Virus record (IMG/VR): IMGVR_UViG_3300031553_000017
Coordinates: 1-35,894 of that record
DNA from: a virus
Direction: 5' to 3' (one strand)
DNA length: 35,894 nt
Positions 2,962 through 35,620 of the stretch are shown piece after piece (positions within the stretch are counted from its first letter, which is position 1; each line of letters begins with the position of its first letter). The translations under genes and the position numbers were made by a program. A model generated the notes under the pieces. It ran no database searches and was not told the origin of the DNA. It saw only the letters and a list, made by a program, of their open reading frames with translations.

Positions 2962-3402
2962 TCAGGCGATGCGCTGGTAGCCCTCGATCATCTGCTCGTT
3001 CATCAGGCACTCCGCGGCCTCGTCCTGCTCCGCGTCGCGCCACTCGTCCACGTCGTGCTCGTACCAGGCGATCATGCACTCCGCGTGGCGGTGCAGCCAC
3101 TCACGCGTCGCCTGTGGACCCGTGACGAGTTGCGCGCTCAGGTAGTTGTACGTCTTCTGCCGGAGCACGAGCGCGAATCCCCGACCGAGCTCGATGATTT
3201 CCACGTACGCGTCTACCTCGTCGCTGCGCACCGTCTCCAGCACGTTGCGGGGCCGCTTGTCGAGTCGGGCAAGCTGCTGGGCACTCATCGGTTCGTAATC
3301 GGGCAAATCGTGCAGCGAGATACCGGCGTAGGGCGCCTGGCCCTCGCGTGCTCGGCGCGGTGCCCTCTCGATGGATGGCACGGGGGCTCCCCAGTAGTTC
3401 AT
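2962..3402 (-). CDS. hypothetical protein, 146 aa
   Basis: The chosen start is ATG 3402 (MNYWGAPVPSIERAPRRARE), in ATGA overlap with the upstream stop and with GAGGGGG before it. The upstream extension to 3513 lies inside the neighbouring gene and is not used. After a flexible N-terminus, residues about 60-146 form a likely helical domain with an acidic stretch (WYEHDVDEWRDAEQDEAAE). No family is recognised. Confidence 0.7.
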   Translation of the reverse strand: MNYWGAPVPSIERAPRRAREGQAPYAGISLHDLPDYEPMSAQQLARLDKRPRNVLETVRSDEVDAYVEIIELGRGFALVLRQKTYNYLSAQLVTGPQATREWLHRHAECMIAWYEHDVDEWRDAEQDEAAECLMNEQMIEGYQRIA

Positions 3403-3782
3403 CGGTCGGCCCCCTCTGCCAGCGTCCGAGCCGCCTCGTGGAGACGGGTCCTCTGACGGGCTCGCTCCATCCCCTGCCGACGAACGGATTGGATTTCGTT
3501 TGTGGCCGTCCATACGTAGCTATCCAGTGACCCCCATCCAGAACCTCCAGGCAGTTTGTGCCATAGTACTGCCCAGATGCCATCTGATGCGGCACAGTAT
3601 CGGTGGCCCTTGGTGGTGAATCGGCGGACGTGGATACCGTCCTGGTCGATGGCTGCAACAGTGTACGCGTGGGGCAACGGGCAGATGTGCGCCTCGATCA
3701 GTCGGTCAATGCACTCACTGCCGCTGGGGCGAGAGCTCTCGGCGAGCTCGAAGGTGGGGCGAGGTGCCTGTGGATCGCTCAC
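3399..3782 (-). CDS. hypothetical protein, 127 aa, under RNA-level control (putative)
   Basis: The start is GTG 3780-3782 with AAGGAGG six nt upstream, giving MSDPQAPRPTFELAESSRPS. An ATG at 3803 would lie upstream of this strong site and is less likely. The protein has a compact middle region with H, C and W residues (GHRYCAASDGIWAVLWHKLP) and a basic helical C-terminus. No family is recognised. The site is unusual. It is flanked by a 10-bp inverted repeat that could hide it, and an 11-nt perfect complement lies in the loop of a predicted plus-strand RNA at 3853-3935. Its own translation is therefore probably regulated. Confidence 0.7.
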   Translation of the reverse strand: MSDPQAPRPTFELAESSRPSGSECIDRLIEAHICPLPHAYTVAAIDQDGIHVRRFTTKGHRYCAASDGIWAVLWHKLPGGSGWGSLDSYVWTATNEIQSVRRQGMERARQRTRLHEAARTLAEGADR

Positions 3783-3814
3783 GATAGTCCTCCTTGCTGT
3801 CACGAGGACTATCG
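3782..3814 (-). promoter_or_regulatory. inverted repeat overlapping the RBS of the 127-aa gene
   Basis: CGATAGTCCT (3805-3814 as read on minus) and AGGACTATCG (3782-3791 on minus) are perfect 10-bp partners 13 nt apart. The downstream arm covers part of the Shine-Dalgarno sequence and reaches the first base after it up to the GTG. Folding in mRNA would partly sequester the ribosome binding site. Confidence 0.6.
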
Positions 3815-3817
3815 CGC

Positions 3818-3846
3818 TTGCCCGGCTGAGGATGGGAGTGTATATT
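3818..3846 (+). promoter_or_regulatory. plus-strand sigma-70-like promoter
   Basis: TTGCCC at 3818-3823 and TATATT at 3841-3846 are 17 bp apart. The same -35 variant TTGCCC occurs in the minus-strand promoter at 4737-4765. Expected transcription start is about 3853, just ahead of a hairpin and terminator. Confidence 0.5.
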
Positions 3847-3852
3847 CAGAGC

Positions 3853-3935
3853 ACCACTCCCGCAAGCGATGGTCTGATAGTCCTCCGTTTGCGGTTCGGG
3901 CCCGGCGGCTGTAGACGCGTTGCCGGGCCTTTTTC
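3853..3935 (+). ncRNA. candidate antisense small RNA, about 83 nt
   Basis: Downstream of the plus-strand promoter the RNA would fold into a hairpin, CCGCAA (3860-3865) with TTGCGG (3889-3894), and then a terminator hairpin. The 23-nt loop holds GATAGTCCTCC (3876-3886). This is the exact complement of GGAGGACTATC, the Shine-Dalgarno region of the GTG-start gene at 3782. A trans- or cis-acting block of translation is the natural reading. No protein-coding gene fits this strand here. The prediction is from sequence pattern alone. Confidence 0.5.
3898..3934 (+). terminator. rho-independent terminator, plus strand
   Basis: GGCCCGGC (3899-3906) pairs with GCCGGGCC (3922-3929), followed by TTTTT (3930-3934). 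The T-run is on the plus strand only, opposite to every gene nearby, which argues for a short plus-strand transcript ending here. Confidence 0.7.
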
Positions 3936-4020
3936 TGTGCTGTCTCCTCTCTACCTCCTATCAGTGTGTTCAAGCTGTCAGAATGACGCTTATCGGCACC
4001 CGCTGGCACCTAATCGGCAG

Positions 4021-4224
4021 CTATCCATCTGTGCCACTGGACGTTGCGCCGTCCGGGCGGGGAGCAAACGGCTCACCGCGTTCCCGCTCCAGGCGGGCTA
4101 TGAGTTCCCGCAGCGCCTGCTCCACCAGGCCCGAGATCGTCGGGCGACCTGGCAGACCATGTGCTGCATCGCGTGTACGCTCCAAAATCTGATCATCGAG
4201 CGTCCAACTGACTCGTTTGCGCAT
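4021..4224 (-). CDS. ribbon-helix-helix DNA-binding protein, 67 aa
   Basis: The start is ATG 4224 with GGGAG 6-7 nt upstream. An upstream in-frame ATG at 4275 lies in the -35 box and is rejected. The sequence MRKRVSWTLDDQILERTRDA followed by GRPTISGLVEQALRELIARL is a typical RHH (CopG/Arc-like) fold: a basic beta strand, then two helices with a turn at Pro-Thr-Ile-Ser. Such dimers bind operators and repress transcription. It has its own strong promoter (4247-4275) and an inverted repeat upstream that could be its operator. It likely controls the left-end early genes. Target assignment is inference. Confidence 0.8.
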   Translation of the reverse strand: MRKRVSWTLDDQILERTRDAAHGLPGRPTISGLVEQALRELIARLERERGEPFAPRPDGATSSGTDG

Positions 4225-4246
4225 CCTTGACTCCCGTGTGTATCGT

Positions 4247-4275
4247 AGTATACGCGCCTGTGTGTCTATTGTCAA
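4247..4275 (-). promoter_or_regulatory. consensus sigma-70 promoter for the RHH operon
   Basis: TTGACA (4270-4275 on minus) and TATACT (4247-4252) are 17 bp apart: a perfect -35 box and a 5 of 6 match at -10. Transcription should begin near 4240 and run left through the RHH gene and the small early genes towards the RecT-like and winged-helix genes. Confidence 0.85.
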
Positions 4276-4281
4276 GACTTG

Positions 4282-4320
4282 CGCTGCGTTTTTCTGCTAC
4301 ATTTTCTCAGAAAAACAGCG
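4282..4320. repeat. imperfect inverted repeat upstream of the RHH promoter
   Basis: CGCTGCGTTTTTCTG (4282-4296) pairs with CAGAAAAACAGCG (4308-4320), with two extra bases in the left arm and an 11-nt loop. It overlaps the stop of the collagen-like lipoprotein gene and lies 7 bp upstream of the -35 box. It could be a 3' processing hairpin or an operator. There is no T-run after it on minus, so it is not a classic terminator. Confidence 0.6.
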
Positions 4321-24402: not shown

Positions 24403-24627
24403 GTCACCTCCGTACATGCACGCCGGGGCCGCCCGTGGTATGAGCAGCCCCGGCTATGAGTCATCGGGTGGGAGTTGAGAGAGGACGTGGCGCGCCCGCC
24501 TGCGATGTCAGCCAACATCGCAGTTCCTGCTCGCTGCCGTTGAAGACGAAGGGGGAACCACGGCAGAACCCGCATTGCCAGACCACTCCCGCAAGCTGGG
24601 TTAGCGCGCCACGCTGTACGCGCCGGT
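24403..24627 (-). promoter_or_regulatory. structured 225-nt 5' leader
   Basis: Between the promoter start (about 24627) and ATG 24402 there is no certain gene but three hairpins. They are CTGCCG/CGGCAG (24534-24539 with 24561-24566), TGCGATGT/ACATCGCA (24501-24508 with 24515-24522) and GCCGGGGC/GCCCCGGC (24422-24429 with 24447-24454). No T-tract follows the last. A long leader before a structural operon suggests control of readthrough or translation. Confidence 0.5.
24461..24586 (-). CDS. possible 41-aa zinc-type peptide in the leader
   Basis: A frame starting at GTG 24584-24586 reads VVWQCGFCRGSPFVFNGSEQ then ELRCWL and ends at TGA 24461-24463. The CxxC and later Cys, and a protein-like composition, suggest coding. 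The frame is open further upstream to the -35 box but has no ATG. The GTG has no well-spaced ribosome binding site. The hairpins in the same stretch may explain the sequence instead. Confidence 0.25.
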   Translation of the reverse strand: MVWQCGFCRGSPFVFNGSEQELRCWLTSQAGAPRPLSTPTR

Positions 24628-26177: not shown

Positions 26178-27080
26178 TCAGACTGAGATCGGCACCTGCT
26201 CCAGGTAGCGCCGAACCAAGTCGTCAAACGAGCTATGGATCGTCCCCGCCTGCCATACATCGTGCACGAGCTCGGCTGCACGGTAGGATGTGCCGGGCAC
26301 CTCGTCGTACAGATCGAGCACCTGGCCATGATCAACCAGGACGGGAATACCATAGGAGCTCTCGGCGCGGTCGATCCGCAGGTGCAGGTTCCCACGTCCG
26401 AGTTCGGGCAGGTGGATCGCAATCATGATCGGCCGCTGCGCCTCTCTCTCGCGTGCGGCTTGCCGATCTTTGATGATCTCGCGCTCGCGGCGCTCACGCG
26501 CGTCCTCTCGCTCGGCAGCGCGTTCCCCCTCGATGCGCGCGGTCATATGCGCGATCTCCTCGGCGAGCTCGGCCTGCCATGCGGTCCTGGCGGCATCCCG
26601 GATGATGTCGGCGGCGTCCTGATCGCGGTGGTCGATGATATCGTGTGCGCTCTGCTCAGCGGCCAGAGTATCATACGCCGCCTGCGCCGCCTTGCGCATC
26701 GCTGCCCACCCGCGCGCGACCTCGTCCAGCTGGAGCCCACAGGCTGAGAGCTTCTGTGGTGGTGTCTCCGACGTGAACATCTGCAGCGCCACTCGCCCGG
26801 CTGCGAGCCGCTTGCTCCGGATCGACTCGGCCCAGGCAACCTGACGCTCGGTGCCCTCCAGCCTCGGCAATCCGGCCTTCAGCGCATCGGCAGCCGCCTG
26901 GGCGTTCTCCATGTCGCGTCGCGCCCGCTCCGCCTCGCGCTCCTGCTCCTGCTGCGCCGCGTAGCACTCGGCGCATACGTGGTTCGCCGCCAGCCACTCG
27001 GCGCGCCGGTCGGCGTCGCGGCCGCTCAGGCGATGCATCTCCTCGTGGCCGCAGGCCATTGTGATCGTCGTGCGAGCCAT
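26178..27080 (-). CDS. zinc-motif coiled-coil protein, 300 aa
   Basis: ATG 27080 follows GCGAGGAGGTGC. The N-terminus has C10-G-H12 and later C36-x2-C39 (HVCAECY), a likely zinc site. A coiled-coil region (QQEQEREAERARRDMENAQA) is followed by LEGTERQVAWAESIRSKRLA, a motif seen in small bacterial and phage proteins of unknown function. A long alpha-helical part (170-215) rich in Glu, Arg and Ala comes next. The last 85 residues are a beta-rich domain. The same CGH...CxxC plan occurs in the 135-aa gene at 28077. Function is unknown. Confidence 0.7.
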   Translation of the reverse strand: MARTTITMACGHEEMHRLSGRDADRRAEWLAANHVCAECYAAQQEQEREAERARRDMENAQAAADALKAGLPRLEGTERQVAWAESIRSKRLAAGRVALQMFTSETPPQKLSACGLQLDEVARGWAAMRKAAQAAYDTLAAEQSAHDIIDHRDQDAADIIRDAARTAWQAELAEEIAHMTARIEGERAAEREDARERREREIIKDRQAAREREAQRPIMIAIHLPELGRGNLHLRIDRAESSYGIPVLVDHGQVLDLYDEVPGTSYRAAELVHDVWQAGTIHSSFDDLVRRYLEQVPISV

Positions 27081-27101
27081 TTTCGCGCACCTCCTCGCTA
27101 G

Positions 27102-27143
27102 TCCCTACGCCGCCGGGCTGTCTGCCCGGCCTTGCCACCGGGC
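27102..27143 (-). repeat. leader hairpins with alternative pairing, copy 1
   Basis: GCCCGGC (27124-27130) can pair either with GCCGGGC (27112-27118) or, by its first six bases, with CCGGGC (27138-27143), so the two hairpins exclude each other. The following TCCCTACGCCGCCGG (27102-27116) recurs at 27783-27797, and a 27-bp block (27124-27150) recurs at 27377-27403. It lies between the 69-aa gene and the 300-aa gene. Confidence 0.6.
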
Positions 27144-27148
27144 TGGGG

Positions 27149-27358
27149 TTACTGCTCCTCCGCGCATCCCGGCCAGCCCAGCGCCTTGTTGATTGTGGCA
27201 AACGCAGCGCGGGCTCCGTGTCCCGGTGAATGCACGCCGTGCGTCGTCTGCTCAATCCACGCATCGACCGTCTTGAGGGCGGCTACAAGCTCATCTCCAT
27301 CGACAGGGCCGCGCGGTGCCACGAACTGTGGTCTCGGGTGATCGCTGTACTCAGCCAT
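27149..27358 (-). CDS. hypothetical protein, 69 aa
   Basis: The chosen start is ATG 27358 (MAEYSDHPRPQFVAPRGPVD), after GGAGGAAGG. The longer frame to 27391 is rejected. It is a helix-rich small protein with C-terminal WPGCAEEQ. It is flanked on both sides by copies of the hairpin leader. No family is recognised. Confidence 0.65.
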   Translation of the reverse strand: MAEYSDHPRPQFVAPRGPVDGDELVAALKTVDAWIEQTTHGVHSPGHGARAAFATINKALGWPGCAEEQ

Positions 27359-27376
27359 TAGGGCCTTCCTCCTTGC

Positions 27377-27429
27377 GCCCGGCCTTGCCACCGGGCTGGG
27401 GTTTGCGGCGGGCCGGTACCGCGGCCCGC
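27377..27429 (-). repeat. leader hairpins, copy 2
   Basis: GCGGGCC (27408-27414) pairs with GGCCCGC (27423-27429), and GCCCGG (27377-27382) with CCGGGC (27391-27396). The second hairpin lies in a 27-bp block identical to 27124-27150. It sits just upstream of the ribosome binding site of the 69-aa gene. Confidence 0.6.
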
Positions 27430-27438
27430 TGGCTCACC

Positions 27439-27765
27439 TCAGATGGTCTCCATGCGATCTGGCTCCGGGAGTTGACCGTCAACGCCCATGATGGTCAACA
27501 GCGTCAACTTGATCCGCCCCACCTTTGTCATCTGTTCGCCCTGTGGCGATACAAGCACATGGTACCCCAGCTTGCGGAGTTGCCGCGCTCTTCGTCCAGC
27601 GTCCCTACTCGCCGTCCCGTACCACTCCTGCCGGTACGGGTACGCCGGGGCGACTCCATAGCATGTAATGGGCTTGGTCATGGCCTTCCCTCCCCTGTTG
27701 GGGTTGCTCGTCTCGATGCACGGACCATACTTCGTGCCTGGTGCCGGGATCGTACCTGTTGCCAT
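27439..27765 (-). CDS. hypothetical protein, 108 aa (or 80 aa from an inner start)
   Basis: ATG 27765 has GGAGGGC close upstream and is preceded by the conserved leader. An inner ATG at 27681 has a better spaced site (GGGAGGGAAGG), so two forms or the shorter form only are possible. The shorter part is TKPITCYGVAPAYPYRQEWY then a basic RDAGRRARQLRKLGYHVLVS segment, a probable alpha/beta fold. No family is recognised. Confidence 0.6.
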   Translation of the reverse strand: MATGTIPAPGTKYGPCIETSNPNRGGKAMTKPITCYGVAPAYPYRQEWYGTASRDAGRRARQLRKLGYHVLVSPQGEQMTKVGRIKLTLLTIMGVDGQLPEPDRMETI

Positions 27766-27782
27766 GCCCTCCTCCTTGCTAT

Positions 27783-27846
27783 TCCCTACGCCGCCGGCCG
27801 CTGTGACCGGCCCCGTCGTCTCGGGTGGGGCGTCCGGAGACGCCCC
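27783..27846 (-). repeat. leader hairpins, copy 3
   Basis: GGGGCGTC and GACGCCCC (27827-27834 with 27839-27846) form an 8-bp stem with a TCCG tetraloop on minus. GGCCG and CGGCC form a second small hairpin. TCCCTACGCCGCCGG (27783-27797) is shared with copy 1. It lies upstream of the 108-aa gene. Confidence 0.55.
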
Positions 27847-27860
27847 GCGCACGCTCAGGA

Positions 27861-28058
27861 TCACTCCGGCACCCATATCGTGGTGCCGGGCGATGCCTCT
27901 TCCCAATGCCCTCTGGTACGACGCGGCCGCTTCTGTACGAGTGGTTCCGGTTCTTCTGCGGCCCGTCGTGCTGCCGGTGCATTGGCCCTAATCTGTCGGC
28001 AGAGAACGTTGATAGCTTCCCTGAACGCCGCATCCGCTGCAGCCTGCTTGCGATTCAT
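27861..28058 (-). CDS. small basic protein, 65 aa
   Basis: ATG 28058 follows GGAAGTGGACG, 18 nt after the stop of the 135-aa gene. The N-terminal half is helical (NRKQAAADAAFREAINVLCR), the C-terminal half is rich in Pro, Arg and Glu and probably disordered. No family is recognised. Confidence 0.55.
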   Translation of the reverse strand: MNRKQAAADAAFREAINVLCRQIRANAPAARRAAEEPEPLVQKRPRRTRGHWEEASPGTTIWVPE

Positions 28059-28076
28059 CGTCCACTTCCGATCAGT

Positions 28077-28484
28077 TCAGTCGATGTGCCGACCGATGGG
28101 TGACTCCTCGTATGCCCTCTGGCGACGCTCCTCGTCTGCATCTCTGCGCGCCTGCCGCTCCGCGTCCTCGGCTGCAGCCAGCTCAGGATAGCGCAGCCGC
28201 CAGGCCTTGAGTGCATCCCGCGCCGCATCGCGCGCCGGGAAGTAGCTGCCGGGGTGGTCACGGAGCCGCTCCGCTGCGTCGATCATGCGGCTGATCTCGC
28301 CACGCGCTGCGGTGGGTGACAGCTGCACGAGTGCTGCGGGATACTCAGGGACGCGCTCGTGTTCGGCCGCCGCGTCCTGGGCCGCCTGCTTCGCGATGCA
28401 GTCGTTGCAGGGCCGGTTGGTGGTGTCCAGCTCCCAGTCTTGTCCCTGCCGCGTATGTCCGCAGGTGTAGGTTATCACTTTCAT
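28077..28484 (-). CDS. zinc-motif coiled-coil protein, 135 aa
   Basis: The start is ATG 28484 (MKVITYTCGHTRQGQDWELD), after AAGGAGGGCGAG. The longer frame to 28517 overlaps the promoter and is rejected. C8-G-H10 and C26-x2-C29 form the same motif plan as in the 300-aa gene at 26178. The rest is one long helical Ala/Arg/Glu-rich region. It is the first gene after the 28.55 kb promoter. Confidence 0.7.
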   Translation of the reverse strand: MKVITYTCGHTRQGQDWELDTTNRPCNDCIAKQAAQDAAAEHERVPEYPAALVQLSPTAARGEISRMIDAAERLRDHPGSYFPARDAARDALKAWRLRYPELAAAEDAERQARRDADEERRQRAYEESPIGRHID

Positions 28485-28528: not shown

Positions 28529-28556
28529 AGTATACCATATTCCTGGCGGATGTCAA
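28529..28556 (-). promoter_or_regulatory. near-consensus sigma-70 promoter with extended -10
   Basis: TTGACA (28551-28556 on minus) and TATACT (28529-28534) are 16 bp apart, and TGG before the -10 gives an extended -10 element. The start would be near 28522, inside the inverted repeat CTCTA/TAGAG (28519-28530), which could be an operator. It drives the small-gene block 28484-24685. Confidence 0.85.
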
Positions 28557-34877: not shown

Positions 34878-34889
34878 CCTATGATCCTC

Positions 34890-35171
34890 TCAACGCCTCT
34901 CGTCATCGATCATCTGAAGCAACTGCTCAAGTTCCTCGGCCGTGATGACATAGATTCTACGCTGCTCAGACTCCGGCTGGCTAGTCATTACGCTATCAAG
35001 GTAGACATCGTAGCGCGCCATTAGACTGTCGATATCCCGCGCAGGTCTCGTATAGGGCTGCATGGCTGTCTCATGTGGACACGGTGGGCACTTGTGTTTG
35101 GCATTCACGAACCACGCGCCATGGGCCATGCAGATCCAGCTCAACCAGACCAATGCCACTCCCCAACTCAT
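34890..35171 (-). CDS. small membrane-anchored protein, 93 aa
   Basis: ATG 35171 follows GAGGAATGAG. The N-terminus (MSWGVALVWLSWICMAHGAW) is one membrane segment or signal anchor, followed by KHKCPPCPHE, a C-x2-C pair, and an acidic soluble tail with an ITAEELEQLLQMIDDERR end. Function is unknown. Confidence 0.6.
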   Translation of the reverse strand: MSWGVALVWLSWICMAHGAWFVNAKHKCPPCPHETAMQPYTRPARDIDSLMARYDVYLDSVMTSQPESEQRRIYVITAEELEQLLQMIDDERR

Positions 35172-35200
35172 ATCTCATTCCTCGTCCATGGTTGCTCGTC

Positions 35201-35620
35201 TCAACGCCTCTCGTCGCTGATCGCCGAACCGAACTCGATCAGCAGTGGTTCCAGCCACTCGCTATGCACCACGCGCTTGTCCCACGTCACTTCCCTGTGG
35301 TCTGCATAGATGTGATAGCATAGGTCCTGCACATCGCTGTGATCGTGCCCAGGCCGCGCCAAGAATCTCGTCACCTGGGCAAACACACCATCATGTCCAT
35401 GTGCCTTGTCTATGTGCACAGCCCATGAGAACACGGCGAAGTAGTCGGTGCTGTGCTTGCCTTTCCAGAACTCAATGCGCAGGCCCCGCTCGTTCTCAGG
35501 CTTGGTCGGCCATGTCCGCAAGAGGCGGACGGTGTACTCGACACCGTGGATGACCACACCCTCGATCAGTAGCTCGTCGTTATCCTCAATCACTCGCTCG
35601 GTCTGCTGGCGAATCTTCAT
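35201..35620 (-). CDS. hypothetical protein, 139 aa
   Basis: ATG 35620 follows GGGGAACTGAGG and overlaps the PAPS-reductase-like gene by 35 nt. The text VHGVEYTVRLLRTWPTKPEN, then GLRIEFWKGKHSTDYFAVF and WAVHIDKAHGHDG, suggests a mixed alpha/beta protein rich in His. No family is recognised. Confidence 0.65.
   Translation of the reverse strand: MKIRQQTERVIEDNDELLIEGVVIHGVEYTVRLLRTWPTKPENERGLRIEFWKGKHSTDYFAVFSWAVHIDKAHGHDGVFAQVTRFLARPGHDHSDVQDLCYHIYADHREVTWDKRVVHSEWLEPLLIEFGSAISDERR

Follow-up and report, generated by a model that had tools for sequence, protein, structure and literature searches.

The region at 3783–3935 of an uncultured bacterial virus genome raises the question of whether the strand opposite to its genes encodes a small antisense RNA and, if so, which part of the neighboring message this RNA would act on. 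The window, by which we mean the whole stretch of DNA that was analyzed, is a single 35,894-nt virus record from IMG/VR, and our analysis concerns this genome only. Small RNAs of uncultured phages are rarely annotated. If real, the RNA described below would mean that antisense RNA runs one more early-gene circuit in a phage. It would also offer a compact, testable example of a start site that is locked and is linked, through a repeated ribosome binding site (RBS) word, to an RNA from the other strand; its reach is limited to one genome.

Results

Genome setting of the locus

The minus strand carries the recognizable products of the phage (a DnaB-type helicase, terminase, portal, protease, capsid, and tape measure protein), and all proteins with a family match are encoded on it. 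The sole plus-strand open reading frame that we tested (27316–28191) has no family match. This fits an earlier, sequence-only reading, which had placed the candidate RNA opposite to all genes. The late block ends near 4307 and is followed by a minus-strand promoter (4275–4247), P0002, an interval of 238 nt, P0001, and further early genes. The features of this segment are as follows.

4247–4275, minus strand: promoter TTGACA-17-TATACT upstream of P0002, 11/12 consensus matches
4021–4224, minus strand: P0002, a 67-amino acid protein of probable ribbon-helix-helix (RHH) type, with sub-threshold Pfam matches
3809–4009, minus strand: intercistronic reading frame of 66 codons with its TAG stop within the anti-RBS arm (element B, below); possible, doubtful
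3399–3782, minus strand: P0001, a 127-amino acid orphan with a GTG start at 3782 and the RBS GGAGG; presumed controlled gene

The promoter at 4275 is one of three near-consensus minus-strand promoters (TTGACA-17-TATACT, at 28556, 24662, and 4275, each with 11/12 matches), which apparently serve the host RNA polymerase. P0002 is a probable small RHH regulator. Its matches to two Pfam families, VapB_antitoxin at E = 0.03 and CcdA at E = 0.08, stay under the cut-off, its predicted structure is helix-helix without a strand (pLDDT 72.5), and a fold search returned no PDB match at E ≤ 0.001. P0001 has no match in PHROGs, Pfam, or NCBIfam. Its coding score lies between the coding mean and the off-frame mean, and its structure model is of low confidence (pLDDT 50) and was left unused. 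The frame 4009–3809 is doubtful as a leader peptide: its coding score of −0.20 is far under the coding mean of 0.36, and inspection by eye found no good RBS for it. Among the early genes, 1239–2021 encodes a recombinase-like protein, presumably of the RecT/Erf type.

A putative RNA gene on the plus strand

The sequence-only reading had proposed a promoter, a hairpin, and a terminator in line on the plus strand. We locate the following elements there.

3818–3846, plus strand: sigma-70-like promoter TTGCCC-17-TATATT of the predicted RNA, 9/12 consensus matches
3834–3861, either strand: 7-bp inverted repeat GGGAGTG-N14-CACTCCC around the −10 box and the RNA start; possible operator
About 3853–3934, plus strand: predicted small RNA of 82–84 nt, its likely start placed 6–8 nt below the −10 box
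3860–3894, plus strand: hairpin with a 9-bp stem (one G-U pair) and a 17-nt loop, −17.4 kcal/mol on the plus and −12.9 kcal/mol on the minus strand
3898–3934, plus strand: intrinsic terminator, a hairpin (−24.2 kcal/mol) followed by TTTTT

The best reading of 3818–3934 is a putative free-standing RNA gene composed of promoter, structured RNA, and terminator. The promoter and the terminator with its five Ts are as first described, the −35 box of the promoter matching the consensus at 4/6 positions. The hairpin is also present, but the 23-nt loop once ascribed to it is a 17-nt loop in the RNA, since only the outer 6 stem pairs had been counted.

We find 13 promoter-like sites in the 35.9-kb window (4 plus, 9 minus), and 3818–3846 is the only one with a terminator-like hairpin 40–250 nt downstream. 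In 1,500 dinucleotide shuffles of 3700–4300, with both strands read, such a promoter-terminator pair occurs in 8 strand-cases, and a pair whose terminator hairpin reaches −20 kcal/mol or better in 1. Our own scan rule lists 11 terminator candidates (8 plus, 3 minus), among which this hairpin is the strongest; a standard scan with a loop limit of 8 did not list 3898–3934. The T run of the terminator is found on the plus side only. The predicted RNA (3852–3935) folds at −43.2 kcal/mol (z = −4.2; equaled by 0/200 shuffles) and its complementary strand at −35.3 kcal/mol. The gap of 7.9 kcal/mol is matched in 50/1,194 windows, and we regard the advantage of the plus strand as support, not proof. 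Individually, the hairpin is 4.5 kcal/mol and the terminator 4.0 kcal/mol better on the plus strand, because G-U pairs of the plus-strand RNA turn into A-C mismatches on the minus strand. An inverted repeat comparable to that around the −10 box flanks 50/4,000 random hexamers.

A search of the window with Rfam returned no family member. Two families of two-hairpin small RNAs, like the predicted RNA in shape, gave weak shape matches, namely anti-hemB (RF02837; 3858–3936, 14.1 bits versus a gathering score of 49.5, E = 0.89) and Betaproteobacteria toxic sRNA (RF02278; 3879–3936, 14.5 bits versus 50, E = 2.2); we rejected membership in either, the gathering scores not being reached. Separately, we observe that the 5′ end of the predicted RNA (3853–3867) recurs as a 15-nt direct repeat, ACCACTCCCGCAAGC, at 24582–24596, within a 220-nt late-operon leader that lies below promoter 24662–24634 (minus) and upstream of the terminase block.

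One word shared by the RNA loop and the RBS

The predicted RNA is connected to the start of P0001 by a repeated word, which defines three elements and a second hairpin.

3876–3886, plus strand: loop element GATAGTCCTCC, an exact copy of 3783–3793; its minus-strand form, GGAGGACTATC, is element A
3804–3814, minus strand: element B, the anti-RBS arm CGATAGTCCTC, an inverted repeat
3783–3793, minus strand: element C, RBS and spacer GGAGGACTATC of P0001
3782–3814, minus strand: RBS-locking hairpin B-C of 11 bp (13 bp with outer pairs), −22.5 kcal/mol on the minus and −17.3 kcal/mol on the plus strand

That the loop is the perfect complement of the P0001 Shine-Dalgarno and spacer had been claimed at the outset and is correct, GATAGTCCTCC being found at both 3783–3793 and 3876–3886. 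The inverted repeat CGATAGTCCTC/GAGGACTATCG occupies 3782–3792/3804–3814, and the core GATAGTCCTC has three copies, those at 3783 and 3876 in the same direction and that at 3804–3813 in the opposite one. A 10-mer with three occurrences in a 321-nt region, both strands counted together, is seen in 8/20,000 dinucleotide shuffles.

For the offset, hairpin, and random-oligonucleotide controls we used 57 minus-strand starts defined by a mechanical rule (at least 60 codons, RBS score, overlap filter), which replaces some starts of longer open reading frames. Only 1/57 genes has an upstream match of at least 9 nt to its own RBS at the same offset (P0001, 11 nt; the runner-up has 8 nt), and only one of 43 plus-strand large-loop hairpins scanned, the one studied here, has a 10-nt RBS complement within 300 nt; the observed case is counted within both the 57 starts and the 43 hairpins. 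A complement of 11 nt or longer to some RBS of the phage is found in 115/2,000 random plus-strand 84-mers. The repeat and the promoter-terminator pairing mostly exceed chance. We also considered a second target for the RNA, its 5′ tail ACCACTCC pairing best with the RBS of gene 2367 (−18.1), and dropped it because −18.1 with some RBS is also reached by 8% of random tails and by 13% of those matched for GC content.

We weigh two other explanations here. According to the first, there is no RNA regulator: a chance promoter-like string is followed by a terminator that only halts stray plus-strand transcription between the late and early blocks, and the repeat is a copied RBS segment. RBS-like strings do recur: GGAGGACT occurs 6 times on the minus and 0 times on the plus strand, plainly as an RBS in two cases, and the RBS of genes 34562 (GGAGGACTGATCCATG) and 33690 (GGAGGACTGATTCATG) begin like the P0001 word. 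Gene 34877 likewise has a long upstream repeat of its own RBS region, without such hairpin architecture, and the −35 box at 3818–3846 is weak. We nevertheless consider this explanation unlikely, given that promoter, hairpin, and terminator are jointly rare, that the RNA has a fold z of −4.2, and that the repeat is placed in a hairpin loop.

According to the second, which we hold to be improbable as well, a repressor uses the three GATAGTCCTC copies as half-sites in the DNA and thereby governs the promoter that lies between them (3818–3846) and the P0001 start. Copy C, however, coincides exactly with a working RBS and spacer, no copy with up to 2 mismatches is present at promoters 28556, 24662, and 4765 or at 4275, the promoter of the probable RHH gene itself, and strand-asymmetric RNA pairing is unexpected for DNA sites. 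Consistent with half-sites are the arrangement of two copies as an inverted repeat with 11-nt spacing that adjoins the −35 box, with the third copy on the far side, the additional 7-bp inverted repeat that brackets the −10 box, and the likely RHH regulator gene next to them.

A predicted RBS lock, and the leader as the probable stronger partner

Hairpin B-C favors the minus strand by 5.2 kcal/mol, the RNA hairpin and the terminator favor the plus strand, and the working strand of each element is thus consistent. The target site had been described as lying inside a self-complementary hairpin (3782–3814), and we find accordingly that the cost of opening this RBS ranks 2nd of the 57 starts. Opening the P0001 Shine-Dalgarno costs 13.0 kcal/mol in the full leader, and the RBS is closed in all of the leaders starting from 4240, 3950, and 3836 (11.2–13.1 kcal/mol). 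The cost falls to 2.8 kcal/mol when arm B is masked. Masking of the antisense footprint (3852–3935) leaves the RBS closed (13.1 versus 13.0 kcal/mol), so the RNA should alter nothing at the RBS at equilibrium.

It is in this light that we judge the sequence-only reading, in which the RNA loop acts in trans mainly by blocking the P0001 RBS, as a second layer over the hairpin. The pairing itself is strong, with 11 exact pairs plus a U-G pair into the start codon and a duplex energy of −22.3 (20-nt pieces) to −24.9 kcal/mol. P0001 is the best of the 57 RBS for the loop (−24.9), and loop and RBS have 11 nt in common, whereas element A and arm B have only 10. The energy of the pair, named earlier as a check, yet comes to a net value of only about +1.6 to −1.0 kcal/mol, excluding any initiation penalty, once both structures are opened (15.8 kcal/mol over 3783–3793 and 8.1 kcal/mol for the RNA loop). 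A closed RBS also offers little left to repress, −24.9 is reached with some RBS by 25% of random plus-strand 21-mers and by 4% of 1,500 GC-matched ones, and the RBS of gene 34562 is almost equal (−24.1). With B occupied, opening from the RBS to the start costs 3.9 kcal/mol, and the net loop-RBS energy becomes about −10 kcal/mol. Of the two-layer control proposed for the gene, we thus retain the RNA gene and the RBS hairpin but not a loop that acts mainly by covering the RBS, which the lock already closes; with the RBS locked, the two layers would be redundant at equilibrium unless the anti-RBS arm is occupied first. We therefore doubt that direct blocking of the RBS is the main action of the RNA.

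The predicted RNA is, on the other hand, perfectly complementary to 3852–3935 of minus-strand transcripts running from the 4275–4247 promoter into P0001. A scan found no minus-strand terminator between 4247 and 3782, and the message is for this reason expected to continue into P0001. Pairing of the RNA with its own complement in the leader amounts to −36.5 kcal/mol for 20 nt, or about −21 kcal/mol once the cost of opening the 11-nt core is subtracted, and the duplex can span the entire RNA. Because this pairing is far stronger, the main partner of the RNA should be the intercistronic leader, if the leader is transcribed.

Search for relatives

Searches of viral contigs via P0001, the next early gene, or the lysin-like gene found no relatives; P0001 has none in genome contigs, phages, or plasmids, and the 2-kb DNA has no relative among phages. 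We kept 80/101 RecT-type relatives, which together with one further locus (L003) gave 81 loci. No neighbors of the P0002-P0001 locus were found in these at E 0.01, and 100 loci searched at E 1 yielded only 6 weak, chance-like matches, none of them for P0001. An inverted-repeat scan returned only one unrelated AT-rich terminator, and a scan for a hairpin with a free loop returned nothing. Capsid and tape measure searches detected distant relatives and two 100%-identical fragments (L084 and L087) that end short of the P0001 region; P0001 is absent from the 11 searched of 19 capsid/tape measure records. Both fragments come from another data set (3300031864), and their capsid and tape measure proteins are 100% identical to those of the phage, which means that either several samplings caught the phage or its record was split.

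Discussion

A tentative model for control of P0001

From the sequence elements and predicted folds we infer transcription, pairing, and effect as follows. The model that we favor, tentatively and at a little short of an even chance, is cis-antisense control of the P0002-P0001 leader combined with a separate RBS lock, the RBS being masked by the RNA only when unlocked. The putative antisense RNA gene lies within the intercistronic leader that separates P0002 from P0001, the first of the early genes. RNA polymerase would start at ∼3853 on the plus strand and stop at ∼3934, and a minus-strand message from the 4275–4247 promoter would read through into P0001. The open loop of the RNA would begin to pair with the mirror-image loop of the leader, and the resulting duplex would cause double-strand cleavage of the message or block passage into P0001, in either case giving less P0001. 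Separately, the predicted hairpin B-C would shut the P0001 RBS, such that P0001 would be translated only if B is occupied or B-C unformed, for example by ribosomes coming from upstream. In the open state the RNA loop could also mask the RBS itself, which would account for the 11 nt common to loop and RBS.

The general feature of phage cis-antisense RNAs, an own promoter and terminator opposite the target message, is present here as a sequence prediction, and the predicted RNA would probably tune its neighboring early gene in a known style of phage control. Speaking against the model are the −35 box with its 4/6 matches and the target gene itself, P0001 being without a homologue and having a middling coding score. 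In an elaborate version, which we consider very unlikely, the one 11-nt word would serve a three-element leader switch of cis-antisense pairing, RBS masking, and lock competition, sar-like and RNAI-like within 150 nt. The word would then be RBS, lock partner, and the kissing loop targeted by the opposite-strand RNA, a threefold role to which we likewise assign a very low probability.

Comparison with known antisense systems

Arc and Mnt of phage P22 are RHH proteins, and the P22 sar RNA gene is placed intercistronically, the RNA covering the RBS of ant itself. The locus described here resembles arc-sar-ant in layout, in which a small repressor gene (here P0002, of probable RHH type) is followed by the gene of a short opposite-strand antisense RNA, here a predicted one, and then by the controlled gene (here presumably P0001). 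Unlike sar, the predicted RNA maps 70–153 nt ahead of the start, and only the 11-nt repeat connects it with the RBS. The overlap of RBS and antisense RNA that characterizes P22 immI is thus absent, 3853–3934 beginning ∼70 nt upstream of 3782, and P0001, unlike ant, is no known antirepressor. The sar RNA has 68/69 nt and interferes with translation initiation of ant (PMC2629481, PMC12197685).

The match between loop and RBS recalls c4 of phages P1 and P7, from which the predicted RNA differs by its position on the opposite strand and by having its own promoter. Cleavage releases c4 from the strand that also carries its target. It is a short phage RNA complementary to the surroundings of an RBS, the complement probably lying in loops (PMC12197685). 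A doubled target word is known from the CI RNA of P4, which pairs with two sites of the same sequence, seqA and seqC (PMC4825925). CI RNA differs from the predicted RNA in that it arises by processing of the same transcript and makes transcription terminate.

In I-complex control, the leader forms a pseudoknot. The predicted RNA and its leader resemble RNAI (Inc RNA) of this group in their mirrored stem-loops and in a second element competing for the RBS: the antisense stem-loop of RNAI mirrors stem-loop I of the rep mRNA, and the RBS meets competition from another element of the leader (PMC10724649). An IncI-type switch is highly improbable here. In such a switch, leader loop A would pair with B and free the RBS, the plus-strand RNA would repress by occupying A, and the likeness of A and C would stem from their common need to pair with B. 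A, B, and C are all present, A-B reaches −18.3 kcal/mol, the plus-strand RNA is a mirror image of the A hairpin, a relation like that of RNAI to stem-loop I (PMC10724649), and the reading frame 4009–3809 stops inside B, but the lock B-C (−24.8 kcal/mol) is stronger than the activating A-B pairing, A-B pairing is absent at 6/6 end points in growing-transcript folds computed without pseudoknots, and the coding score does not support a leader peptide. A loop element that beats or precedes the RBS-closing pairing, as in the I-complex, is therefore not seen (−18.3 versus −24.8 kcal/mol). As tested, the locus lacks defining features of both P22 immI and I-complex control, and the cis-antisense RNA of our favored model would, if it works, act in the manner of a phage antisense RNA and is filed under none of these families.

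Other repeats in the record

The left end of the record (6–219) consists of about seven 30-nt tandem units, each containing the palindrome CTGTCCTAG-TGG-CTAGGACAG or a variant of it, which possibly form an operator array or replication-origin repeats. A 17-nt direct repeat (34888–34904 and 35199–35215) lies upstream of two successive minus-strand starts, and a direct repeat of at least 27 nt is found near the start of, and upstream of, the minus-strand open reading frame 26671–27264 (27102–27150 and 27377–27403).
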